Position numbers and translations under genes: made by a program. 22,734 nucleotides of DNA from a virus, in IMG/VR virus record IMGVR_UViG_3300017706_000001, positions 1 to 22,734 of that record, one strand, 5' to 3'. Under the pieces are notes generated by a model that searched no databases, was not told the origin of the DNA, and was given only the letters and a program-made list of their open reading frames with translations. This document shows, in pieces, positions 1 to 19,813 of the stretch. Within the stretch, counting starts at the first letter, position 1. Each line of letters begins with the position of its first letter.

Positions 1-177
1 ATATCCACCTTGGTCATCTAAGAATTGTTCGTCAATATTAAGGATTGTAAAGTATCCGGTAGGTTCTGGAGTTGTGACAAGAGCATCAAATGTTTTGAGT
101 CTTAGTACTTCTAATGGTACACTATTGAATAGTAATGGTAAGGTTAGTAAAGCTAATAGTAGTGATGACCACTTCAT
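1..177 (-). CDS. CHASE2-domain protein, N-terminal part (cut by window edge)
   Basis: I see 59 codons running off the left edge, so the C-terminus is missing. The product starts with a hydrophobic segment (about residues 4-19, rich in Leu) that is either a signal anchor or the first membrane helix. It continues with 'LEVLRLKTFDALV' at 22-34 and 'FTILNIDEQFLDDQGGY' at 43-59. That pattern (helix with L-x-x-K-T-F/Y-D, then a beta strand ending in I-D-E/D, then L-x-x-x-G-x-[YW]) is the start of the CHASE2 extracytoplasmic sensor domain. In bacteria CHASE2 proteins often have three C-terminal membrane helices and sometimes a nucleotide cyclase or kinase, and they often sit beside FecR-domain genes, as here. 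The start ATG overlaps the stop of the upstream gene (ATGA), which supports it and suggests translational coupling. The family call rests on 59 residues only, and the output domain is unknown. Confidence 0.7.
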   Translation of the reverse strand, partial: MKWSSLLLALLTLPLLFNSVPLEVLRLKTFDALVTTPEPTGYFTILNIDEQFLDDQGGY

Positions 178-560
178 TTTATAATATTATAATTATTTAT
201 AACAACAAATGTTAAAACTATATTCATAGAAGTTATATAATTTTTACTAGAATTTTGAGAAATAAACCCAGCTACTATTGCTTTTTGTATTAAAAGATTA
301 TCTAAGTGTGGCTTGTCTTCTAGTAAAGGATTTTTTTCATACACGTTTGGTTTCTTTAAACCTTCATAAGTTGTATAAACATCTAAAGCATTTAAAGTCC
401 AAAAAAATATCATTTGATTTCTTGTTGGAGGTTCGTTGTAGTCTCCTACATTAAAAATAAATTCTTTAGGAGGAACATAGACTGCAGGTTGTTCAGGTAT
501 TGTTAAGTCTAGTTCAGCTTTTAAACTCAGGGATAACAACATTAATAATAAATACTTCAT
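174..560 (-). CDS. Small exported/membrane protein, DUF5658-like
   Basis: This 128-residue protein has a cleavable-looking signal peptide (MKYLLLMLLSLSLKA, residues 1-15) followed by a Pro-rich stretch up to about residue 46. Residues 50-75 contain 'FFWTLNALDVYTTYEGLKK' and then 'EKNPLL'. A D-x-x-T-T-x-x-G-L...E-x-NPLL arrangement in membrane helices is typical of the DUF5658 family, whose function is unknown. Two more hydrophobic segments follow at about 88-99 and 108-122. The start is well supported: an AAGGAG ribosome-binding site lies inside the last codons of the FecR gene, with normal spacing to the ATG. The gene sits between FecR and CHASE2 genes and overlaps the CHASE2 start by 4 nt, so it is probably made with them. 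DUF5658 membership is from pattern recognition and not a profile search. Confidence 0.7.
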   Translation of the reverse strand: MKYLLLMLLSLSLKAELDLTIPEQPAVYVPPKEFIFNVGDYNEPPTRNQMIFFWTLNALDVYTTYEGLKKPNVYEKNPLLEDKPHLDNLLIQKAIVAGFISQNSSKNYITSMNIVLTFVVINNYNIIK

Positions 561-1635: not shown

Positions 1636-2299
1636 TGTTACCGTTAGAATTGATTTGCAACCAGTCTGAAACCAATGTTGAAGATTGGATAATGTTAAAT
1701 GTTCTGCTGTCACCTGTGTGGTCAAGGTAGAAGTATCCGTCTGCATATCCGCTTCCTGTAAAGTTTACTGTGTTGCTATCACCATCTACATCTACGTAGT
1801 TAGTAGCTCCATCATAGTTAATATCAAAATCAAAGGTGTTACTATCACCATTGATAATCCAGTCTAAGTCAACCGTACCTGCAAGTGCAGATGTACCTGT
1901 GTCTAATGTAAATGTGTTAGAACTTCCAGTTACATCAACATTGTAATCAGAACCATCTATCCCATAAGTATCAGTTGGGTCTCCTTGAATAGTAAATGTA
2001 TTACTATCTCCGTCAAACTCAAAAAAACCTGTAATGTTATCTCCAAGTATATCGCCTAAGAATTTATTGGTATTACCGATTTGATTTATATCTAATGTAA
2101 GATTCAAACCGTCTAAGTCTAATGCTGTTAATGTACCAGCAACAGAATCTAGTCCACCAATAATGTTAGAGTTTCCAAGTTGTTCTAAATCAATATTTGC
2201 TGTAGCACCAGATTGGTCAACATATATTTCGTTGTCAGCCCCGTATAGCAGTGATGCACTCATCATCACAACTAGGCTCATTAATTTTAATGTTTTCAT
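1583..2299 (-). CDS. Curlin-like repeat protein, probable secreted amyloid substrate
   Basis: This 238-residue protein begins with a signal peptide (MKTLKLMSLVVMMSASLLYGA, cleavage near residue 21). The rest is built of about eight imperfect repeats of roughly 20-30 residues, each with a short beta strand, a G-[DN/S]-[ST]-N turn and another strand: 'QLGNSNII' (40-47), 'QIGNTNKF' (73-80), 'GDSNTFTIQGD' (97-107), 'GSSNTFTLD' (125-133), 'GDSNTFDFD' (151-159), 'GDSNTVNF' (173-180), 'GDSRTFNIIQ' (196-205) and 'GNNGTVCIVQ' (220-229). Curlin repeats of CsgA/CsgB follow S-x5-Q-x-G-x-x-N-x5-Q. Several repeats keep this spacing, while others replace Gln by Asp. Two cysteines, at 226 and 238, close the protein. 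The gene overlaps csgG by 65 nt, and M1 is preferred because it gives a charged signal-peptide n-region. Its place beside CsgG/CsgF makes it the obvious substrate. Amyloid formation itself is inference. Confidence 0.75.
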   Translation of the reverse strand: MKTLKLMSLVVMMSASLLYGADNEIYVDQSGATANIDLEQLGNSNIIGGLDSVAGTLTALDLDGLNLTLDINQIGNTNKFLGDILGDNITGFFEFDGDSNTFTIQGDPTDTYGIDGSDYNVDVTGSSNTFTLDTGTSALAGTVDLDWIINGDSNTFDFDINYDGATNYVDVDGDSNTVNFTGSGYADGYFYLDHTGDSRTFNIIQSSTLVSDWLQINSNGNNGTVCIVQNDGGTTTSC

Positions 2300-3092
2300 A
2301 TTCCCAATAGCCTCTCTCTATTCCAATATTTATTATATTTAATACTCCAGTCTCTATTGCTTTTTGTAAAGCTATAGAAACACTTTCATTCTCAGCAACT
2401 CCTCCTTCTATTTCTACCAGTTCAGTACCGGCTTCTATAAAACGAAATACATCCTGAGAAATACTTGTGGATATAATACTTTTAGAAACTAATGTTTCGG
2501 TAAGCACTTCTCCAGTTGACACAGAAACTAATCGTAATGATATAGTAACTGTATCTTCTCTATACTGTTTACTATTACCTATTCCTAAGTATCTAGCACC
2601 AGCACCTCCAGATTTGAGGTTAGCTTCATAACTAACAACTCCTCCCTGAACTAATAACCCTGCAAATAGCAGTGGTTGCATCTTATTATCTTCTTTAAAC
2701 TCTTTACGTGTAGCCCTAATTAATTGTCTTTCTTTTGTTAAGTCATCTAATCCTACACGTTCTACAACTCTGAAAAATTTACCACCTGCAGCATGTTTAA
2801 AAGCTCTTATAAGAAATGCTTCAGGAGCTTGTGTAATAGCTGTGCTAAACAAAGCAAACGAACTATTACTTCTACGTTGTCCTGTTAAGTCTCTAAAGCT
2901 ATCGGGGTATATAGCTATAGTAGGTTTTACTTTTGCTCGTGGTAAGTTTTTTAATTCTTCTGACTGTAAATCTAATATAGAACTAGGCTTAATATCTTGT
3001 GTTAATGTTAAGTCTTTATTCTGATTTAAAACAGCACAACTAGAAAGTAAAACTACCGATAGGCAAAGAAATAGTCGTTGTATTTCCATCAC
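2235..3092 (-). CDS. csgG: CsgG, curli secretion channel lipoprotein
   Basis: The 285-residue length is close to E. coli CsgG (277). CsgG forms the nonameric outer-membrane beta-barrel that secretes curlin subunits. The N-terminus, IQRLFLCLSVVLLSSCAVL, is a lipoprotein signal with lipobox LSSC (Cys19) and resembles the E. coli signal itself. Recognisable family segments are 'DLTGQ' (68-72), 'FSTAITQ' (82-88), 'RVVERVGLDDLTKERQLIR' (108-126), 'YEANLKSGGAGARYLGIG' (155-172), 'LRLVSVSTGEVL' (187-198), 'FRFIE' (216-220) and 'AIETGVLNIINIGIERGYW' (245-263). The channel-constriction loop differs from E. coli (see findings). The gene overlaps csgF by 53 nt upstream and the curlin gene by 65 nt downstream. 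The tail after 264 is short, with two Cys (275, 279). Confident as a CsgG homologue; whether it is functional is not shown. Confidence 0.95.
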   Translation of the reverse strand: MMEIQRLFLCLSVVLLSSCAVLNQNKDLTLTQDIKPSSILDLQSEELKNLPRAKVKPTIAIYPDSFRDLTGQRRSNSSFALFSTAITQAPEAFLIRAFKHAAGGKFFRVVERVGLDDLTKERQLIRATRKEFKEDNKMQPLLFAGLLVQGGVVSYEANLKSGGAGARYLGIGNSKQYREDTVTISLRLVSVSTGEVLTETLVSKSIISTSISQDVFRFIEAGTELVEIEGGVAENESVSIALQKAIETGVLNIINIGIERGYWEYENIKINEPSCDDECITAIRG

Positions 3093-3534
3093 TGTCCGTT
3101 ATGTTTAAAGTTATTATTCCATCGACAACACTATATTCTATTGTGTTACCTTCTAATTCTAATATACCACTATCACTAGCAGTCTCTCCAAATAAATTTT
3201 CTACTAACTGTCTAGATAATTGTGCATATATTCTAGACTCTAAGTTTCTTATAAATCTTGCAAGAGTTGTATTCTCTTTGTCTCTTTTTATCTGGTCTTG
3301 AAGTGCTTTTATTTCTGCCTTTAATGCTTCTTTACGATTGAACTCTTGATTTTGGATTGTAAGATAATGTGATGATGTACCAACACCATTAAAGCTAGGA
3401 CTTTTAAACTTAAATACTACTTCATCTGCAATACTTCCTACAGACCAGAACATAATTAACATAGACCAAAAGAATATACAAAACTTACAGTTCCTTATAG
3501 TCTTTTCACTTTTAAATGTTGGTTTTAATTTCAT
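3040..3534 (-). CDS. csgF: CsgF, curli assembly factor
   Basis: CsgF binds the CsgG channel with its N-terminus, forming a second constriction, and helps couple secretion to fibre nucleation at the cell surface. This 164-residue protein has an unusually long signal peptide ending about SVGSIA/DE (residues 36/37). The mature N-terminus 'VVFKFKSPSFNGVGTSSHYL' (39-58) matches the channel-plugging segment of E. coli CsgF (TFQFRNPNFGG). The C-terminal 'DGIITLNITDSDGNTTTISL' (138-157) matches the E. coli DGQLQLNVTDRKTGQTSTI strand pair. Between them lies a charged, helical, coiled-coil-like stretch (about 64-92) that makes the protein longer than E. coli CsgF (138). The ATG overlaps the stop of the upstream small gene (ATGA), which supports the start although no clear ribosome-binding site is visible. 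The gene is the first of the curli block. Confidence 0.9.
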   Translation of the reverse strand: MKLKPTFKSEKTIRNCKFCIFFWSMLIMFWSVGSIADEVVFKFKSPSFNGVGTSSHYLTIQNQEFNRKEALKAEIKALQDQIKRDKENTTLARFIRNLESRIYAQLSRQLVENLFGETASDSGILELEGNTIEYSVVDGIITLNITDSDGNTTTISLPIGSFTF

Positions 3535-3707: not shown

Positions 3708-3793
3708 TGTAGTTGTTCTAATACACTTATAATAAATAAAAATACAAATATACTTATAATAGGTATTTCTAGTTTAATCTTTTCTTTTATCAT
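3704..3793 (-). CDS. 29-aa transmembrane micro-protein
   Basis: A 29-residue reading frame, MIKEKIKLEIPIISIFVFLF followed by IISVLEQLQ, with Lys-rich ends of the n-region and one hydrophobic helix at about 10-24. It overlaps the 3' end of the 116-residue gene by 20 nt and the next start by an ATGA junction (3704-3707). Without it, 66 nt would be non-coding inside an otherwise gap-free chain. A weak purine stretch (AAAAGAG) lies directly before the ATG. Very small size makes chance possible. The hydrophobic helix with positive n-region and the tight packing favour a real gene. Confidence 0.5.
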   Translation of the reverse strand: MIKEKIKLEIPIISIFVFLFIISVLEQLQ

Positions 3794-4124
3794 CTCTTTT
3801 AGCTTTTGAAATCTTAGCAGTATCAATTAATTGAGGTACTCCTAGTATTGTTTTAATCATAGTATCTTGTCTTATGATTTCATTATCAAGACTTCTTACT
3901 CTATCTATTAATGCAACTAAGATGCCATGTTGTGTATCTAACTTTACACCTAGTCTTTCTTCTATAGCTGCTATCTGTGCTTCTACTTTTGCATCAACAG
4001 TATCTAGTTTTGCTTCCATACCATCAACAATACGTATAACTAACTTATAAATAAACCAACCAAGACCTATTGCTGCTGCTATAGGAAATCCAACTTCTTG
4101 AATAAATACTACTACTTGTTCCAT
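3774..4124 (-). CDS. TM plus coiled-coil protein, lysis region
   Basis: This 116-residue protein has an N-terminal hydrophobic helix (about 9-30, GFPIAAAIGLGWFIYKLVI). A heptad-like helical region follows (about 34-95: 'AKLDTVDAKVEAQIAAIEERL', 'LIDRVRSLDNEII'), then a very basic tail (SKAKRDDKRKD). The architecture is like an inner-membrane spanin or holin accessory, but the Lys/Arg just after the helix would place the coiled coil in the cytoplasm by the positive-inside rule, so a spanin role is doubtful. Its start overlaps the holin stop (TAATG), indicating translational coupling. An 80-residue protein at 15378-15620 has the same layout. No family recognised with certainty. Confidence 0.8.
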   Translation of the reverse strand: MEQVVVFIQEVGFPIAAAIGLGWFIYKLVIRIVDGMEAKLDTVDAKVEAQIAAIEERLGVKLDTQHGILVALIDRVRSLDNEIIRQDTMIKTILGVPQLIDTAKISKAKRDDKRKD

Positions 4125-4597
4125 TAGTCTTTAGAAGTGTTAGAAGCTCCAAAGTAAAAAGATATAACAGCACTTGCCAAGCCACCAAGGTATCCAAGTA
4201 CAAGGTTTATAAGAGCTTCAGAGTTTTGCTCTGGTGGTTGTAGAGTGACAAGGAATATGTATCCCATAAATCCACCTACAACAGCTATGCCCATGATACG
4301 TGCTGTCCAGTCTTTACTGAACTTATTCCTAGCATCTTGTCCATCTTGTGTTTCTAATTTAAACACATCTACTTCAAGCTCTTTCATCTGTACTTCAAAA
4401 GCTTGTTCAGCTTTTTTAAGTTCTAACATTTGTTCAGGTGTAGCTTCTGCTATTCCTTTCTCTATAGCTTTTGGAGTATTAGGAACACCTAACACTTCTG
4501 ATATCATGTTAGCTGCCATGCCTCCCATCGGTCCACCCAAGGCAGTTCCTAATGTAGGTGCAACAGCTCCAACTATGTTTTTTAATAATCCTTTCAT
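4124..4597 (-). CDS. Holin, three-TM gene-transfer-agent type
   Basis: A 157-residue protein with a Gly/Ala-rich hydrophobic N-terminus (LLKNIVGAVAPTLGTALGGP, about 3-30), a charged helical middle (about 45-90, 'TPEQMLELKKAEQAFEVQMK') and two hydrophobic helices near the C-terminus (about 98-116 and 128-150, ending FYFGASNTSKD). This order, including the K-D-W-T-A-R-x-M turn before the second helix, is that of the GTA_holin_3TM family. Holins form inner-membrane lesions that release a signal-less lysozyme, and the lysozyme immediately upstream indeed lacks a signal peptide. One base separates the two genes and TAATG links it to the next gene. Confidence 0.8.
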   Translation of the reverse strand: MKGLLKNIVGAVAPTLGTALGGPMGGMAANMISEVLGVPNTPKAIEKGIAEATPEQMLELKKAEQAFEVQMKELEVDVFKLETQDGQDARNKFSKDWTARIMGIAVVGGFMGYIFLVTLQPPEQNSEALINLVLGYLGGLASAVISFYFGASNTSKD

Positions 4598-4598
4598 T

Positions 4599-5072
4599 TC
4601 AGGCTCCTAATACCATTTCTTGTAATTCTTTACTACGTCTACCAACTTGTCCATACCAACGACTGTCTTGCATTTGTACAGACATTTCTTTCCAGTTGTG
4701 TTCTCTACAAGCTTTTAACATGTTACGAAACTTTGAAAGTCTTGTACCACCTAGATTAAAACACATGTTGACTAACACTCTCTGTATAACTTCTGGTAAC
4801 TTTTCAAAGTCTTCCTCGCTTCCAAAGACATGTATAGTTTCCTTATAGTGCTTTTCAAAGTCATCCTCATAGTACATGTCTACAACTTCTTGAGTAACAG
4901 GTGTGCCAACTTCCCAATCATATTCCGGGTCGTTAGGTTGGCAAAGGTGTCCAACTCCTAGAGTTTTATAGCCTAGACTATCCATATAAATTTCTAACAC
5001 TTCGCCTTCGTGTCTCTTTATTTCAGCTTTGCAAAGTTCTATATCTAATTTATTATTTTTCTTGAAAAACAT
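4599..5072 (-). CDS. T4-type lysozyme (endolysin, GH24)
   Basis: A muramidase that cleaves peptidoglycan at lysis. The 157-residue protein contains the GH24 catalytic triad in T4 spacing: Glu22 in 'RHEG', Asp31 in 'YMDSLGY' and Thr37 in 'KTLGVGH' (T4 E11, D20, T26; same 9 and 6 residue intervals). The C-terminal half has the family helices 'VLVNMCFNLGGTRLSKFRNM' (about 99-118) and 'DSRWYGQVGRRSKEL' (about 136-150). The N-terminus MFFKKNNK is not a signal peptide, so export must depend on the holin encoded next. The start overlaps the end of the preceding 1375-codon gene by 20 nt and follows AGGATTAA, a reasonable ribosome-binding site. Confidence 0.93.
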   Translation of the reverse strand: MFFKKNNKLDIELCKAEIKRHEGEVLEIYMDSLGYKTLGVGHLCQPNDPEYDWEVGTPVTQEVVDMYYEDDFEKHYKETIHVFGSEEDFEKLPEVIQRVLVNMCFNLGGTRLSKFRNMLKACREHNWKEMSVQMQDSRWYGQVGRRSKELQEMVLGA

Positions 5073-12041: not shown

Positions 12042-15000
12042 TTATAATCCGCTTCTATATGAACTACCTATTGTTGTTAATAATCCATTTAAGTAGTCAT
12101 CGTATTTCTGACCCGGTTCTCCTTCGTTAGCAATAGCTGTAGCAATAATTTGAGCTTTTCTATTTTCTTCATTTTCATAAGCTCTAAAATCAAAATCAGC
12201 TTGGTCTCTTAATTCTTGCCAAAGAAACGATAAATTCTGTGAACTAAAGTTAAAAGCGTTCATAGAATTTTGCATATTAATTTGATTCTGTGCAGCAGTA
12301 TTAACTGTATTAGCTTGTCTTCGCCACTGTACGTTTGAAGCTTCAACAGCAGCAGCATTCTGTGCGTTCCATTGATTCCTTGCAAAATCTTGTTGACTAT
12401 TAAATTGGTCTACTTGAGTTGTAAGCTGTGCATTAAATTTTTCAATGTCAGCATCTCTACCAGCTCTTCTAGCTTCAGCAGCATTCTCTTGAGTAGCATT
12501 AAACTGACTCATTGCATTAGACTGTGAAGCATTGTATTGACTCATCTGTGCATTAAGACTAGCCATAAACTGATTAGTTTGATTTTCAGATGTTGCATTA
12601 AATTGAGCTGCAGCATTTTGAAAAGACTGATTGCTTAACAATCTTTGTTGATTTTGTTGAGCTTCTAAAATATTAGCTTGTTGTTGATTACTAAGATTAG
12701 CCATATCTACTTGTAAAAAAGCTTGTGCATTTTGTGCAGATAGTTTAGTTCTAGCATCTAAGTTTGCTAAATCCATTGAAGCTAATCTAGTAGCATCTTG
12801 CATAATAGCTTGTTGGTCAGCATTAAAATTACTAAGAGTAGCTGTTTGCATAAACTTACTATCAGCTAAAGCTTTCTGTTGGTCAAAACTAAACTGAGCC
12901 ATATCAAGATTCGCATTAATCTGAGCATTGGTCATTCCAGTTTGTTGCTCATTTGAAAGCTCTGCAAGTCCTAACTGTTGTGCTAACTGTGCATTTGTTT
13001 GAGCAGCAGCCATACGTTTATTAAGATTTGCTAACTCTATCTGATTTTCTGCAGACATGCTTTCGCTATCTGCTTGGTTTCTAGATGTTAAGTTTGCTAA
13101 TGCTATCTTTTCTTCAGCACCTAACTTAGCCATTTCTGCTCTTTGTCTTAGTTCAGCATTTTGAGATAAAACAGAAGCAGTAGTTGCTAACTCTTGTAAT
13201 CTAAATCTATTGGCTTCTGTAAAGTTTGCACTATCTGCAGCAGCTCTTTCTTGCAAGTTTGCAAGTTCCATTTGGTTCTCAGCAGACATATTTGCTAAGT
13301 CCATTTGTTGTGCTAAATTAACATTAGTCTTTTTAAAGTCTACAAGAACATTAAGATTTGCTAATCTCATTTGTTGTTCATTAGACATTGACTCTCTAGC
13401 AGCAGCATTTAACTCTGATAGATTAGTTAATTCAACTCTAAGTCTAGCATCAAGATTAACTTTTTCCATGTCTTGTTCAAGCTCTGCTTGTCGCATAGTC
13501 CTATTAACTTTAGCTTGATACTCTGTTAATCTTCCTTGTTGTTCAGCAGACATGTTTTCTCTTGAAGCTTGATTAAGCTGTTCAAGATTTGCAAGGTCCA
13601 TTTTAGCACCAACATCTAAATTAGCTAAAGCAGCTTGTTGTCTTTGTGAAGACTCTTGTGAAGCTCTTTGTTGAGCATTTTGAATGTTAGTCATTCTAAC
13701 TTGTTGCTCTTGTTGAGCTGTAGTTAGAACTGCTTGTTGTTCAAACTCACCCTGCTTTAATACAACTTGTTGTGCCATTTGTGCAGTTTGTGAAGCTGCT
13801 GTTTGTTGGTTAGCAAGATTAGTCATTCTTTGTTGCATTACTTGACTAGCTTGTTGTAAGTTTGCTTGTTGTTCGTTACTTAAGTTTTGAGTTGCTCTAG
13901 CTTGTAAAGCTGTAGCATTGCTCTGTGCAATTGGTAAAGCACTTTGAATAATAGCATTAAATAAAGCATCTCTTCCAACTGTAGAAGCATTTAAACCTCT
14001 TTGAGCCATCATTTGATTAACTGCATCTACAGCAGGTCTAGCCCATACAGGTGTTTTATTATCTTCAATACCTGCAAGTAAGTTTTCCATCTGTGTAGAT
14101 ACTAAAGCTTCTTTTGGAAGTGCTGCTACTGCTGCTATAACATTAACAGGTTCAGTATCTATTTTAGCTTCTACTTCTGCAGGATTTTCTATAACTGCTG
14201 CTGTTACTTCTGGAGGTAGTTCACCAACGACAGCTAACATATCTGCTGCTGCAGTTGTACGAGCTGTTCCAGTTACTGCCTGTCTTGATGCAGCTTGAAA
14301 AGTTGGTATACCACCTATCTGAGCAGCATCACCTTTAGCAACTCCATCAGAAGTTATACCAGCTCTAGTAGCTGCGTCTTCACTTGGAGCTGTTCCTAAT
14401 TCTTGTGCTATTTTTGTATTAGCTTCTGCAACTTGTGCAGTTCTTTGTTTAGCTAATTCATATTGAGGTATATTATTTAAGTCTACTCCCTCACCTGTAA
14501 CATTAGCTAATACATCTGTTTTTTCTTTTTCAGATATAGTTTGTGCAATTCTTGTAGTAACTTCAGCTTCATCTACAGGAGCAACTTCAACTGCTTCTTT
14601 AGGAGCAATGTAAGGAACTGTAGAAATAGGTCTAAGACTACCTTTAACTTCTGGTGTTAAAGCTTTTTCTATTTCTTGTCTAGCTATTTCAGCAGCTTGT
14701 GTTGGGTCACGTTCTGCAATTTCTTGAACTTTTGCTGTTATTCTATTTTTTAATTCTGGAGTAAACTTTTGTATAGCTGCTTGTACGTCTGCTGGTTGAG
14801 TTTTTACAATAGCACTAAAAGTAGCTGCTTCTATTTGTTTATCTACAACACCTTCTTTAATATCTTTTTTAGCTACTGTACTTACATCTTCTGGAGTTAC
14901 AGCTTCTGCTTCTTTAACTTTAGCTTTTGTAGGTTTTGCCATTGTTGTAACTTCTTGAGGAATTTCTTCAGTTACTTTTTCAGCTTCTGGAATTATAGCT

Positions 15001-15359
15001 GCTGATGGCATTACTCCAACTGCACCTGCTTGTATTTGTTTTGCAGTTTGAGCTATACGTTCTGTTCTTTCTTGACCTGCGGTAGTATCTAAATCCATTT
15101 GAGGAAGAGCAGGTGTGTCCTCTACAGGAGGTACAGGTGGGTCTTTATCATCATCTTTATCTTCATCTTCATCGGGACCACCACCACCCGGACCATCATC
15201 CGGAATATCTATAATAACTTCTTTTTCTCCGGGAAAACCAGCCTTTCCACCCGGAGCAAACCCTACTCTTCCACCCTTAGACATATCTAACCTATTAGCA
15301 GTAACGTACTTTCCTTGATATTTTTTATTTCTTTTCTTTTGTTGTTTATTTTTTTTCAT
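12042..15359 (-). CDS. Gln/Ala-rich repeat protein, putative internal virion protein
   Basis: A 1105-residue protein in three parts. The N-terminus (1-90) is basic (MKKNKQQKKRNKKYQGKY), then has the motif 'SKGGRVGFAPGGKAGF' and a Gly/Asp/Glu/Pro linker. The second part (about 90-420) is Ala/Val/Thr-rich. The third (about 450-1060) is a long helical region of degenerate repeats of about 13-25 residues, with forms such as 'MDLANLEQLNQASRENMSAEQQ' split over units: 'NMSAEQQ', 'SMSNEQQ', 'MANLSNQQQ', 'ANLDAR'. The repeats probably form a long coiled coil or a stack of helices. The 'GGRVGF..GGK' motif recurs in marine phage proteins as far as I recall. The position suggests a gp14/gp15-like core protein or a tape-like scaffold. 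No enzyme motif is present. Confidence 0.75.
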   Translation of the reverse strand: MKKNKQQKKRNKKYQGKYVTANRLDMSKGGRVGFAPGGKAGFPGEKEVIIDIPDDGPGGGGPDEDEDKDDDKDPPVPPVEDTPALPQMDLDTTAGQERTERIAQTAKQIQAGAVGVMPSAAIIPEAEKVTEEIPQEVTTMAKPTKAKVKEAEAVTPEDVSTVAKKDIKEGVVDKQIEAATFSAIVKTQPADVQAAIQKFTPELKNRITAKVQEIAERDPTQAAEIARQEIEKALTPEVKGSLRPISTVPYIAPKEAVEVAPVDEAEVTTRIAQTISEKEKTDVLANVTGEGVDLNNIPQYELAKQRTAQVAEANTKIAQELGTAPSEDAATRAGITSDGVAKGDAAQIGGIPTFQAASRQAVTGTARTTAAADMLAVVGELPPEVTAAVIENPAEVEAKIDTEPVNVIAAVAALPKEALVSTQMENLLAGIEDNKTPVWARPAVDAVNQMMAQRGLNASTVGRDALFNAIIQSALPIAQSNATALQARATQNLSNEQQANLQQASQVMQQRMTNLANQQTAASQTAQMAQQVVLKQGEFEQQAVLTTAQQEQQVRMTNIQNAQQRASQESSQRQQAALANLDVGAKMDLANLEQLNQASRENMSAEQQGRLTEYQAKVNRTMRQAELEQDMEKVNLDARLRVELTNLSELNAAARESMSNEQQMRLANLNVLVDFKKTNVNLAQQMDLANMSAENQMELANLQERAAADSANFTEANRFRLQELATTASVLSQNAELRQRAEMAKLGAEEKIALANLTSRNQADSESMSAENQIELANLNKRMAAAQTNAQLAQQLGLAELSNEQQTGMTNAQINANLDMAQFSFDQQKALADSKFMQTATLSNFNADQQAIMQDATRLASMDLANLDARTKLSAQNAQAFLQVDMANLSNQQQANILEAQQNQQRLLSNQSFQNAAAQFNATSENQTNQFMASLNAQMSQYNASQSNAMSQFNATQENAAEARRAGRDADIEKFNAQLTTQVDQFNSQQDFARNQWNAQNAAAVEASNVQWRRQANTVNTAAQNQINMQNSMNAFNFSSQNLSFLWQELRDQADFDFRAYENEENRKAQIIATAIANEGEPGQKYDDYLNGLLTTIGSSYRSGL
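12640..13880 (-). repeat. Degenerate Gln/Ala-rich tandem repeats in the 1105-aa protein
   Basis: The coding sequence shows recurring blocks such as ttagctaa, gttgttg and cagcagacat on the plus strand. They correspond to repeated A-N-L-x-x-x-x-Q-x-S/A-x-x-N-M-S-A-E/N-Q-Q units of 13-25 residues. Units are degenerate at both protein and DNA level, which points to old duplication and not recent slippage. Confidence 0.7.
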
Positions 15360-15625: not shown

Positions 15626-15973
15626 TTATGCTCCGATAGTTTTAGTAACGGATGTTGGTGTAATAAGTAATGCTATTTTAGCATCTAGACCAGCTTTTAA
15701 AGCTGTTACAGCATCAGCACCCATAGCTGCTTCAACCCAACCTTGTACGTCTGAAGCAGATAAATCTGCAAAAGCTGTAAAGCTTGACAAGTCTGAAGTA
15801 TCTACAGATTGAGTTCCGTAGCTAGTAGCTGTCCAGTTATTATCATCACTATCTTTATTAGTATCATCAGTAGCTGTAATTCTCCAATGAACATTGTAGA
15901 CTACGTCACTTTTACTATCTTTTGTTGGGTATGTATCAACCGTTGACACGTTCCAAGTATATCCAATTGCCAT
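15626..15973 (-). CDS. Conserved marine-phage protein (DUF7936-like)
   Basis: The 115-residue protein starts MAIGYTWNVSTVDTYPTKDS followed by 'DVVYNVHWRITATDDT', an arrangement I recall from many marine cyanophage and pelagiphage genomes (DUF7936-type). It seems to be one beta-rich domain (about 1-60) and a helical C-terminal part (about 68-105, 'SASDVQGWVEAAMGADAVTA'). It follows the tail fibre gene with a clear AGGAGA ribosome-binding site and could be a small fibre accessory or capsid decoration. The role is unknown. Confidence 0.75.
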   Translation of the reverse strand: MAIGYTWNVSTVDTYPTKDSKSDVVYNVHWRITATDDTNKDSDDNNWTATSYGTQSVDTSDLSSFTAFADLSASDVQGWVEAAMGADAVTALKAGLDAKIALLITPTSVTKTIGA

Positions 15974-15988
15974 ATTATTTCTCCTGTT

Positions 15989-18900
15989 TTAAATTGCTGC
16001 AATAATAAATGCTAGAAGTTCGCTATAACGTACTCCTAGTCTTGTTTGTTCTACTCCATCATCATCAGTCCAAGTGGTTGATATAAACATACCATAATTA
16101 CCTGCATCTAATCCTTCAGCAGTAAAAGCATCTTGTAAATCTTGAGCTATGATTCCAAAGTGGATTCTAGCATTATCTCCTTTTGAAGCTACAGCAGACT
16201 TCCATTTGAACTTTCTTAATAGTCCTTTAGCTGCAACAGCTACTCTAGTTTCTGCATCTGTTAAGTCTTCTATGTCTTGTTTTTCGTTCCTGTCTGAAGT
16301 TTGTATAGTTGCATTGGTTGCATAAATGTCATCAAATCTTGCTACCCCAGTACCTAAATCTATAGTATCATCTGTTACTGTACCGTCAACTGTAGTTATT
16401 GGTCGTATACTACCTGTGCCATCATGAAATCTTAAACCAACAACACCTGTGCCAATAGTTAAATCACCACCTTTAGTACCAATAATTCCTTTTGCAATGC
16501 CATCTTTTCTAAATATAATAATATCACCATCTGATGTTTGTCTATTCAATATTAAACATTGACCATCGTCTCTTGTAATTACTGTATTACCAGTAGAACT
16601 TGTTTCAAAACCTACATTGTTACTAGATGCAGAAGTCTTAGCCACCATAAATACGCCTGAAGAATCAATACGCATTCTTTCTGTTAAAGAACCGCCTGTT
16701 GCTTGTGTAGAAAACTTTAAAGCTCCACTATCTGTTGCTCCATCTGTTTTTGCTGAAATAGTAGCTAAGTCAGTATCAGTATTATTACCAAACATAATAC
16801 GACCAATACCTTGGTCAGCATTAGAATCATTTCTTCTTATTTGAATACCATGACCGCCGCCAGAAGCAGGAGTTTCTATTTGCAGTAAATCATCAACATG
16901 ACTTGCAGAATCACCAATAAGTAATTTGCCTGAAGAATCAATACGCATTCTTTCTGCTGCTGCTACATTGAACTGCATATGGTCATCAGAATGGTCGTAA
17001 GTAATAATACCTCTATTTGGTCCATCTCCAGTTGTTCCATCAGCAAAATGTATTGAACCATTACTAGAAGTACCAGTTCTAATAGTCATACCGAAATCTC
17101 CACCACTATTACCAATAACTAAATCATCAGCAGCAGCGTTGAAATCTCCTGGTGCATCTTGTGCTATTCCAACTCGTCCTGAAGAATCAATTCTCATGGC
17201 TTCTGTACCAACACCAAGTCTTAAACTATTACCACTATCTGCAAATACGCCCAGATAACCACTTTCAGCAAGAACGTATCCCTGTCTTGCATTTGAAATA
17301 TCTAAGTCTAATCTTGCTACAGCAGGTGAGTTTATAGTTAATGCAGTTTGACCTGAATAAGAGTTAGGACTAGTCGTTCCAATTCCAACGTTGCCTGAAG
17401 TGTTTTGATAAAAACCTGTTCCTGATGAGCCTGTGCGTATTTCAAAAGGCTTGTATGTATCACGTGCAGCGTTCATACCATAAACACTTGCAATACCACC
17501 ATTATCACCAACAACCACTCCAGAGTTAGTTGTGCCGAAAAAGGCAGCATCTAAAACGTGCAATTGGCTAAGTGGGTTGGAAACTCCAATTCCAACCTTG
17601 CCTGAAGAATCAATACGCATTTTTTCGCTTAACGAATTACCTGTTAATGTTTGGAAACTTAAAAGACCATCTTCAGCACCATTAGTATTATCTTCAATAC
17701 TACCAAAAATAGATGCATAGTTTGTTAAATTATTTGCACTATCATATAGCCTAAAACCAACACCAGTACCTACTCCTACTTGATTTGTTTGTCTTGAAAG
17801 AAACAAAGGTAAAGAAATTGTACCCTCAACTTCAAGATTAGCATTAGGACTACTCGTTCCAATTCCAACTGCATTAGCAGAAGAGTCTACAAATAAAGTT
17901 CCGCTATCCCAGTTTAAGTCTCCAGTACCACCTGTTAGAGCTGTAAGAGTACCAAGGCTTGTAATATTTGGTTGTGCTGCTGTAGCTAGAGTTCCTGTTA
18001 AAGATGTATTAGCTGTAAGAGTTGTGAATGTACCTGCAGCCGGTGTAGCTCCTCCGATAACAGTACCATCAATAGTACCACCATCAATGTCTGGAGTATT
18101 TACATCTGGGCTTGTAAGTGTTTTGTTTGTTAAAGTTTGTGAGCCTGTTAAAGTTGTTACAGTACTATCAATTGCTAGAGTAACTGCATTACCTGTTGCA
18201 GAACTATCAAGACCTGTACCACCTGATACAGTTAATGTTTCACTATCTAAGTCTATTGCAATAGTTCCACTGTCTGTAGTAATGTCTAAGTCTTCTGCAG
18301 TAATTTGTGTATCTACATAGGCTTTAATAGATTGTTGAGATGCTATACCTGTAGCACTGTTTGAAGACATGTCATCTTCATCAAGAAAAGCTTTACCATC
18401 AAGTATGTTTAACTCTGCTGCAGTACTTGTAACACCGTCTAATATGTTTAACTCTGCTGTAGTTGCTGTAACTCCATCAAGTAAGTTTATCTCTGCTGCT
18501 GTACTTGTAACACCATCAAGGATATTAAGTTCTGCAGCAGTACTTGTTACTGTTGTACCATTTATAGAAAGTGCATCAGTTTCTAAAGTTCCATCAATAT
18601 CTGCATTACCTGAAATGTCTAAAGTAGCTGCATCTAACTCACCAGTAATAGTAATATTTCTACCACCAGTAATATCTTTGTTAGCATCTGTAATAATTGC
18701 TTTACTTGCTATAACTGTTCCGTTTGTAATACCATCAATAAGATTTATGTCTGCTGCACTAGCTGTAACACCGTCAAGGATGTTAAGTTCTGCAGTTGTG
18801 GATGTTACTCCATCTAATAAATTTATTTCTGCTGCAGTTGATGTGACACCATCTAAGATGTTTAGTTCTGCAGTTGTAGAAGTTACACCATCTAACAAGT

Positions 18901-19813
18901 TAATTTCAGCAGCAGTGCTTGTAACACCATCTAAGATATTAAGTTCGGCTGCTGTGGATGTTACTCCATCTAATATGTTTAATTCTGCTGTAGTACTTGT
19001 AACTCCATCAAGGATATTAAGTTCATCTGTAGTTACTGTAGCACCGTCTAGTATTTCTAATTCTGCTTCAGAGATATCAGCACTACCAATTACAAAGCTT
19101 GTACCAGTAATAGCTGTACCTGTAATTGTTGTACCTGTAATAGCTGCAGCACTTGAACCACCAATAACAGCACCATCAATAGTACCACCATTAATGTCTG
19201 CTGTATCAGCTACAAGGCTATCAATGTTTGCAGTTCCGTCTATATAAAGGTTTCTCCACTCTTGTGAAGAACTACCTAAGTCATAACTGTCATCATCATC
19301 TGGGATAATGTTAGAGTCTACATCAGCACCGAATACAACATTATCAGTAGCTGCATCACCCATAGTAATTGTGCCACCGTTAAAAGTTGTAGTACCTGTA
19401 ACTGTTAAATTACCACCTACTGCAACATTACCAGTTGTAGTAATTGAATCTATATAAGCATCTTTAAAGTATAATGAACTTGTCCCTAAATCAACATCAC
19501 TATCTGTAACAGGTAATAATGCACCATCTTGTAATCTAATTTGTTCTACTGTATTAGTAGATACTTGTACATAAAATCCCCATCTATTATTTGTGCTATC
19601 TACAACAATCTTGTTAAGGAAATCTAAATCTCCTATTTGTGGAATGTTACCACCTTCTCCTGCACTACCATCATGCCTGTGTCCAGTTGTAGCTTCATTT
19701 GTAGCACTATAGCTAAATGCATTTACTAATTGATTATACTCGTTATTAAAAAGTGCTGCAGTAATAGTATCTCCATCTGCAAAAGAACTTTGTCGTGTAT
19801 ATGTCTGTCCCAT
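15989..19813 (-). CDS. Tail fibre with ILDG repeats and C-terminal peptidase S74 chaperone
   Basis: A 1274-residue receptor-binding fibre. The N-terminus (MGQTYTRQSSFADGDTITAA) with 'GHRHDGS' (64-70) is the usual virion-attachment type of marine fibres. Residues about 245-360 and 405-475 hold 14-residue repeats 'TSTAAELNILDGV'/'AEINLLDGV', probably a triple-stranded shaft. The distal half carries four copies of 'MRIDSSG' followed by G/V-x-I or L-x-I strands. The last 102 residues begin with 'SDRNEKQDIEDL' and contain 'HFGIIAQDLQDAF' and 'RYSELLAFIIAAI'. This is the peptidase S74 intramolecular chaperone, which trimerises the fibre and then cleaves itself before the serine (here Ser1173; Lys1178 is the likely partner). 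The start has an AGGAGA site. Confidence 0.92.
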   Translation of the reverse strand: MGQTYTRQSSFADGDTITAALFNNEYNQLVNAFSYSATNEATTGHRHDGSAGEGGNIPQIGDLDFLNKIVVDSTNNRWGFYVQVSTNTVEQIRLQDGALLPVTDSDVDLGTSSLYFKDAYIDSITTTGNVAVGGNLTVTGTTTFNGGTITMGDAATDNVVFGADVDSNIIPDDDDSYDLGSSSQEWRNLYIDGTANIDSLVADTADINGGTIDGAVIGGSSAAAITGTTITGTAITGTSFVIGSADISEAELEILDGATVTTDELNILDGVTSTTAELNILDGVTSTAAELNILDGVTSTAAEINLLDGVTSTTAELNILDGVTSTAAEINLLDGVTSTTAELNILDGVTASAADINLIDGITNGTVIASKAIITDANKDITGGRNITITGELDAATLDISGNADIDGTLETDALSINGTTVTSTAAELNILDGVTSTAAEINLLDGVTATTAELNILDGVTSTAAELNILDGKAFLDEDDMSSNSATGIASQQSIKAYVDTQITAEDLDITTDSGTIAIDLDSETLTVSGGTGLDSSATGNAVTLAIDSTVTTLTGSQTLTNKTLTSPDVNTPDIDGGTIDGTVIGGATPAAGTFTTLTANTSLTGTLATAAQPNITSLGTLTALTGGTGDLNWDSGTLFVDSSANAVGIGTSSPNANLEVEGTISLPLFLSRQTNQVGVGTGVGFRLYDSANNLTNYASIFGSIEDNTNGAEDGLLSFQTLTGNSLSEKMRIDSSGKVGIGVSNPLSQLHVLDAAFFGTTNSGVVVGDNGGIASVYGMNAARDTYKPFEIRTGSSGTGFYQNTSGNVGIGTTSPNSYSGQTALTINSPAVARLDLDISNARQGYVLAESGYLGVFADSGNSLRLGVGTEAMRIDSSGRVGIAQDAPGDFNAAADDLVIGNSGGDFGMTIRTGTSSNGSIHFADGTTGDGPNRGIITYDHSDDHMQFNVAAAERMRIDSSGKLLIGDSASHVDDLLQIETPASGGGHGIQIRRNDSNADQGIGRIMFGNNTDTDLATISAKTDGATDSGALKFSTQATGGSLTERMRIDSSGVFMVAKTSASSNNVGFETSSTGNTVITRDDGQCLILNRQTSDGDIIIFRKDGIAKGIIGTKGGDLTIGTGVVGLRFHDGTGSIRPITTVDGTVTDDTIDLGTGVARFDDIYATNATIQTSDRNEKQDIEDLTDAETRVAVAAKGLLRKFKWKSAVASKGDNARIHFGIIAQDLQDAFTAEGLDAGNYGMFISTTWTDDDGVEQTRLGVRYSELLAFIIAAI
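16656..17620 (-). repeat. Dispersed direct repeats encoding MRIDSSG in the fibre gene
   Basis: The plus-strand string cctgaagaatcaatacgcat occurs at about 16656, 16929 and 17601, with a variant (cctgaagaatcaattctcat) near 17178. Each encodes the MRIDSSG unit of the fibre. Near-identity at DNA level means these sites could support recombination between fibre segments. Confidence 0.8.
18388..18555 (-). repeat. Second ILDG/LLDG repeat block of the fibre
   Basis: Four 42-nt units encode TSTAAELNILDGV, TSTAAEINLLDGV, TATTAELNILDGV and TSTAAELNILDGK in succession. They are separated from the first block by a stretch of fibre sequence without this motif. Confidence 0.85.
18725..19078 (-). repeat. 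First ILDG/LLDG tandem repeat block of the fibre
   Basis: About eight 42-nt units encode 14-residue repeats in which 'AELNILDGV' and 'AEINLLDGV' partly alternate. DNA identity between units is high but synonymous differences are common, so selection on the protein is evident. The antisense strand is open for 292 codons here, only because of the repeat composition. Confidence 0.88.

Follow-up and report, generated by a model that had tools for sequence, protein, structure and literature searches.

A probable CHASE2-class III adenylate cyclase gene closes the curli module of a phage contig

Introduction

The stretch of DNA analysed here (the window, 22,734 nucleotides) raises the question of what is encoded by the gene with which it begins, and what that gene contributes to a virus. 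The record carrying the window is a linear virus contig of 22,734 bp whose left edge falls inside a CHASE2 gene: the start of a sensor is present, its output domain lies elsewhere. A preliminary description, made from the letters of the window, drew attention to this sensor and to its neighbours.

The neighbourhood has a literature. Wittmers et al. (2022; PMC9599517) reported csgF, csgG, csgA/B, FecR, an adenylate cyclase ('AC') and a 'histidine kinase' ('HK') in podo- and myophages of SAR11, proposed an alphaproteobacterial origin of the module together with transfer between phage families, and noted both that the combination is absent from bacterial curli operons and that curli genes without the cyclase occur in phages. 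The phage curli pore is also discussed in PMC7029224 and PMC9004378. CHASE2 is named in the main text of none of these three papers. An annotated cyclase is already found in the records of the cultured phages HTVC008M and Melnitz.

Results

Identity of the cut gene

Read on the minus strand from position 177 to position 1, the cut gene gives MKWSSLLLALLTLPLLFNSVPLEVLRLKTFDALVTTPEPTGYFTILNIDEQFLDDQGGY, that is, 59 residues from the ATG to the end of the contig. This product covers an N-terminal transmembrane helix – a hydropathy scan places a hydrophobic segment at residues 6-24 – and the first part of a CHASE2 domain. Against Pfam CHASE2 the 59 residues alone score 12.8 bits (E=0.09) where the cut-off is 26.3, and since the match is therefore not significant by itself, identity was taken from homologues. 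A tblastn search returned 221 relatives in IMG/VR, the best 80 of which are 68-92% identical across all 59 residues, a degree of similarity that excludes chance. The stretch also matches gp019 of Pelagibacter phage HTVC008M (E=3e-7, 46% over 39 aa), a protein with both a CHASE2 (E=9e-39) and a Guanylate_cyc domain (E=3e-19). On this homology the claim that positions 1-177 are the start of a CHASE2 protein is confirmed, and the tblastn relatives, the full-length homologues and gp019 together lead us to annotate 1-177 (minus strand) as the 5′ end of what is, with high probability, a CHASE2-class III adenylate cyclase gene.

The cyclase domain itself lies outside the window and is predicted from the relatives. 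These share an architecture of approximately 577 aa, comprising CHASE2, a transmembrane region and a class III adenylate cyclase. Among the best 80 loci complete copies are 576-599 aa long and carry the cyclase motifs, except for two frame-broken copies (contigs L021 and L068); the remaining short copies end at the edges of their own contigs. Given that every intact full-length relative read has this composition, the output domain that had been placed beyond the left edge is almost certainly an adenylate cyclase. That the window encodes instead a CHASE2 stub, or a sensor with some other output – a kinase, a diguanylate cyclase or none – is most improbable. Bacterial CHASE2 domains do also occur with kinases (PMC5192318), and the cyclase gene is frame-broken at a few phage loci (L021, L068 and L087; L089 is broken in CsgG), but every full-length ORF with this N-terminus, the frame-broken ones aside, is 576-599 aa long and includes the cyclase, and on these relatives we reject a kinase or the lack of an output. 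Moreover L021 is broken in CsgG too, and L068 in CsgF, CsgG, CsgA and FecR, as would be expected of sequencing errors; breaks in nearly every module gene of L068 suggest such errors and not decay.

Conservation, constraint and structure of the full-length relatives

To compare catalytic residues, 155 phage proteins were aligned with 76 from bacteria. Both aspartates that bind metal (D413 and D457) and the lysine that selects adenine (K453) are present in 155/155 phage proteins and invariant across the alignment, and the transition-state residues N526 and R530 are found in all phage proteins but one, which has a gap (154/155); no sequence that reaches these two positions lacks them. At the second adenine site the phage proteins have Ser or Thr, as do their bacterial relatives; this is what is expected for class IIIb adenylate cyclases. 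From up to 150 podophage pairs we obtained dN/dS values of 0.147 for CHASE2 (median), 0.226 for the transmembrane region and 0.104 for the cyclase (median), which indicates purifying selection on both CHASE2 and cyclase. An AlphaFold2 model of the protein from contig L045 (mean pLDDT 89.4) has the expected helix layout: it begins with a helix, continues with a periplasmic domain of mixed alpha/beta structure and long helices at residues 292-379, and ends in a cyclase fold. All 50 PDB structures listed as matches to this model were cyclases; the best are class III enzymes, among them CyaB of P. aeruginosa (rmsd 1.9). When PDB was searched by sequence the cyclase part alone was matched.

Two contigs carry a composite gene (L066:709-2508 and L078:6001-7800) in which a podophage CHASE2 is joined to a myophage-type cyclase. 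The CHASE2 parts are 84-88% identical to those of the podophage-type proteins of L045 and L052, and 29-32% to those of myophages; the cyclase domains, in reverse, are 62-67% identical to myophages and 41-45% to L045 and L052. The switch point falls near the linker helix, and on these identities the swap is a recombination between phage families at about that position. With only two contigs, whose proteins are 97-100% identical, it was probably a single event. Because the domain swapped in is another intact cyclase, cyclase output appears to be a retained feature, and the swap fits selection for a cyclase as the output.

The gene ends a curli module

Upstream of the cut gene, and on the same strand, the window carries a curli (type VIII secretion) module that was missing from the preliminary description. 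Farthest from the edge is a phage lysozyme or endolysin (4599-5072; Pfam Phage_lysozyme E=5.3e-8; PHROG 7, endolysin, E=2e-18), followed by a 157-aa protein with two transmembrane segments that we infer to be holin-like (4124-4597; PHROG 1544, unknown function, E=1e-25) and by a 116-aa membrane/coiled-coil protein with one transmembrane segment (3774-4124; PHROG 18771, unknown), for which Pfam gave nothing significant. The module proper comprises CsgF (3040-3534; Pfam CsgF E=3.4e-18), the outer-membrane secretion pore CsgG (2235-3092; Pfam CsgG E=2.6e-48), a CsgA/B-like curlin-repeat protein (1583-2299) and an exported FecR-domain protein (562-1746; Pfam FecR E=2.8e-11; PHROG 37870 E=1.8e-79; 41% to the FecR of HTVC008M), and it leads to the start of the cyclase gene. 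The curlin-like product is not matched by Pfam curlin; its assignment stems from its secreted, repeat-rich sequence and from its position, under a blastn match, at that of the HTVC008M 'curlin-associated protein'. As listed, the FecR ORF overlaps the curlin-like gene by 164 bp (1583-1746), so that the real FecR start is probably internal, at about 1608-1635, a start that also suits a signal peptide better. A 'histidine kinase' has been reported ahead of csgF in the pelagiphage module, and we considered the 116-aa and 157-aa genes as candidates: neither has a significant kinase match in Pfam or PHROG, no kinase is recognisable at this place in the window, and the published name for the position of 3774-4124 may be a misannotation. 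PMC9599517 itself calls the HK sequences short and/or diverged, making HK doubtful as a defining feature of the module.

The order csgF-csgG-csgA-FecR-[slot]-cyclase, with the cyclase last, is conserved across viral contigs. Where 1.5 kb or more of sequence precedes the cyclase, FecR lies upstream of it in 104 of 106 phage loci, and where 4.5 kb or more does, both CsgG and CsgF lie upstream in 79 of 80. The loci were collected with cyclase or DUF5658 queries, and linkage to curli genes was thus not built into the count. In several podophages (among them L008, L052, L082 and L030) reading of the sequence shows that the cyclase is followed by a gene set of opposite orientation that resembles ribonucleotide reductase; in another phage type (L083:8362-9046 and L084:3617-4301) the same kind of reading finds, after the cyclase, an overlapping pair resembling inner and outer spanins and then a lysozyme. 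A scan for promoters and terminators gave signals not clearly above shuffled sequence.

As to the phage itself, the only direct relatives detected by DNA comparison were the curli genes of HTVC008M; with regard to a possible place in the HTVC023P-type podovirus lineage, a structural gene of the window is nearest to those of Pelagibacter phages HTVC103P, HTVC115P and HTVC104P (41.5-42.6%). The window also encodes a tail-fibre-like protein of 1274 aa (15989-19813), in which AELNILDGVT-type repeats are numerous and whose end looks like an intramolecular chaperone domain, an Ala/Gln/Asn-rich protein of 1105 aa (12042-15359) that is probably an internal virion protein, and a DUF7936 protein (15626-15973; E=2e-23).

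The slot between FecR and cyclase varies

In the window one small gene (174-560, minus strand) separates FecR from CHASE2. The cyclase start overlaps its stop by ATGA (ATAAAATGAAGTGG), exactly as had been described, and the neighbouring FecR gene, likewise borne out, ends 1 bp before it (TAG-T-ATG). The product was previously called a small exported membrane protein of DUF5658 type, coupled to the sensor. The coupling holds and the N-terminus is signal-like, but the DUF5658 match, although real-looking, does not reach the curated cut-off of 25.2 bits (19.5 bits, E=0.0017). Nor does a simple hydropathy scan pick out a clear transmembrane segment, which leaves the membrane label uncertain. The protein, which has seven close relatives in viral contigs, is best named DUF5658-like only.

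Across the 104 loci in which FecR precedes the cyclase this slot is variable: FecR abuts the cyclase directly in 45, a DUF5658-like gene intervenes in 19 and a PA14/curlin gene in 24, and most of the others hold either a short protein of curlin-like type or an ORF without assignment. Since 45 loci are devoid of any intervening gene, the pair can do without the DUF5658-like protein. The nearest relative of the window, L008, makes the same point on a finer scale: its CsgA and CsgG are 100% identical to those of the window, its CsgF 98%, and its FecR and cyclase N-terminus 92% each, and it has a 579-aa cyclase and no DUF5658-like gene.

Such comparisons bear on whether the edge of the contig is chimeric, with a CHASE2 start derived from another genome. 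The DUF5658-like protein of the window is closest to those of L083 and L084, whose cyclase is of another subtype, and the cyclase start is closest to that of L008, which lacks DUF5658; a chimera might produce this pattern. Two independent contigs (L085 and L087) nevertheless show the same junction, joining a DUF5658-like gene to a cyclase of the window's MKW type with the same 4-bp ATGA overlap. The arrangement of the window is accordingly natural, the slot gene being gained or lost among close relatives; we see no sign of a chimera, and regard one as ruled out by this junction, its likelihood being negligible.

Bacterial relatives

The 80 best bacterial CHASE2-cyclase loci are mostly from Alphaproteobacteria (about 26-34% identity). 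A Pfam scan of 60 bacterial CHASE2-cyclase neighbours found FecR directly upstream in 13; CsgG or CsgF was found near the cyclase gene in none of the 80 loci (up to 8 kb on each side), and FecR or a CHASE2 cyclase near csgF in none of five alphaproteobacterial csgF loci (about 9 kb on each side). These samples (80 and 5 loci) are small and not exhaustive; they agree with PMC9599517. Curli genes and FecR-CHASE2 cyclases were never neighbours in the bacteria sampled, and their joining thus seems to be a viral construction.

On the side of the response, a search for cNMP-binding domains in four phage records found none, a weak negative given that completeness of the records was not rated. A SAR11 16S probe pattern matched 0/190 alphaproteobacterial genomes and so picked out no SAR11 genome. 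The literature on adenylate cyclase in SAR11 yielded, beyond PMC9599517, nothing besides an unrelated Brucella paper.

Discussion

With the operon, the homology, the intact catalytic residues of the relatives, the constraint, the near-invariant pairing of FecR with the cyclase and the near-invariant linkage to CsgG and CsgF established, we think it probable that the cut gene encodes a phage CHASE2-class III adenylate cyclase, placed at the end of a curli module, which signals broadly as follows. Residing in the inner membrane, the protein would have one transmembrane helix at its N-terminus, a periplasmic CHASE2 domain and C-terminal transmembrane helices, after which a signalling helix would lead to the cyclase, which would dimerise in the cytoplasm and produce cAMP. 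As the periplasmic partner of CHASE2, the exported FecR-domain protein would relay to it the state of the outer-membrane CsgGF pore, of the curli fibre or of the envelope, such that infected cells would make cAMP once the secretion machinery has been set up. This relay is suggested by the order of the genes and by analogy with bacteria; that FecR is the direct partner of the phage cyclase is a tentative proposal, to which we give a little less than an even chance, and any specific benefit to the phage is less certain still.

Two rival explanations bear on what the phage might gain. One possibility, which we hold to be doubtful though the better of the two, is that the cyclase regulates the curli module and does not sense it: cAMP would turn on curli secretion or adhesion to hosts, resulting in a biofilm-like behaviour that serves 'sibling capture' or superinfection exclusion. 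The linkage to csgFG (79 of 80 loci), the ideas on aggregation and superinfection in PMC9599517 and PMC7029224, and the presence of FecR and a CHASE2 kinase within a biofilm-regulating operon (PMC5192318) are all consistent with it; yet the module has no identified transcription factor, Pelagibacter is reported to be devoid of curli genes (PMC9599517), and cultures of Melnitz showed no clumping (PMC9004378), although Melnitz is itself reported to lack csgA/B.

A second possibility concerns the timing of lysis. The preliminary description had the sensor co-expressed with lysis genes; these prove to be neighbours further upstream, and the gene belongs to the curli module. The CsgGF pore, FecR and CHASE2 could still sense the envelope late in infection, with cAMP or the pore helping to set off lysis, in line with what has been put forward for the Melnitz CsgGF pore. 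Such a role for the phage pore has been suggested (PMC9004378), the module comes after the lysozyme and the holin-like gene in the window and its relatives, a window-like lysozyme lies upstream in 22 of 44 podophage loci, and in L083 and L084 the spanin-like pair and lysozyme come after the cyclase. But neighbourhood alone is a weak argument, and in HTVC008M the module is found between 2OG-Fe(II) oxygenases or hypothetical genes and a putative tail tape measure gene, there being no lysis gene in the stretch read. We know of no precedent for lysis driven by cAMP, and judge this explanation unlikely, more so than regulation of the curli genes.

Several known systems are close to that of the window. 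The pelagiphage module of PMC9599517 has the gene order of the window, csgF-csgG-csgA/B-FecR-(extra gene)-adenylate cyclase, differing in that its slot holds a second curlin gene where the window has a DUF5658-like one. HTVC008M gp019 (YP_007517885.1) likewise joins CHASE2 to a class III cyclase and lies downstream of a curli module and FecR, but it belongs to a myophage, is 46% identical over the 39 aligned residues and follows a PA14/curlin gene. In bacteria, a Campylobacterota cluster (PMC9239204) combines a CHASE2 adenylate cyclase with a FecR outer-membrane protein, but adds a phosphodiesterase and a TPR protein, and curli genes are not mentioned. The CHASE2 cyclases CyaD1, CyaD2 and CyaK of S. 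meliloti read the outer-membrane beta-barrel receptor NsrA and make cAMP (PMC7529298, PMC13001267); there the downstream regulator is Clr, and the curli pore is absent. The BiofilmReg operon of Burkholderia (PMC5192318) has a FecR-domain protein adjoining a CHASE2 sensor, as in the window, but there a histidine kinase, with a response regulator, provides the output. The pairing of FecR with CHASE2 sensors is already known from bacteria.

Nor is a phage-borne sensor of this type, previously called unusual, without precedent: HTVC008M (gp019) and Melnitz carry such proteins, and FecR, AC and curli genes occur together across pelagiphages (PMC9599517). Once the published module is recognised the surprise of a CHASE2 domain in a phage is largely gone. 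The module is mostly known, and what is left over is that the 'AC' gene is identified more precisely and that its pairing with FecR can be put to the test; the variable slot between FecR and the cyclase, and the swap between podophage CHASE2 and myophage cyclase, are new details. A bolder reading, which we offer as speculative, is that a phage lineage has put together, in a single operon, a surface-signalling circuit found in no sampled bacterium and made up of the CsgGF pore, FecR as relay and the CHASE2 adenylate cyclase, by which the virus would monitor how its own amyloid secretion machine is assembled and report this to a streamlined host via cAMP, with interchangeable curlin and DUF5658-like slot proteins tuning the relay.

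SAR11 is an abundant ocean bacterium, and its phages rank with the most abundant viruses of the sea. Naming their 'AC' as a CHASE2 sensor with FecR would make of a loosely defined auxiliary metabolic gene a specific pair for signalling across the membrane, one with bacterial precedents in S. meliloti and the Campylobacterota.
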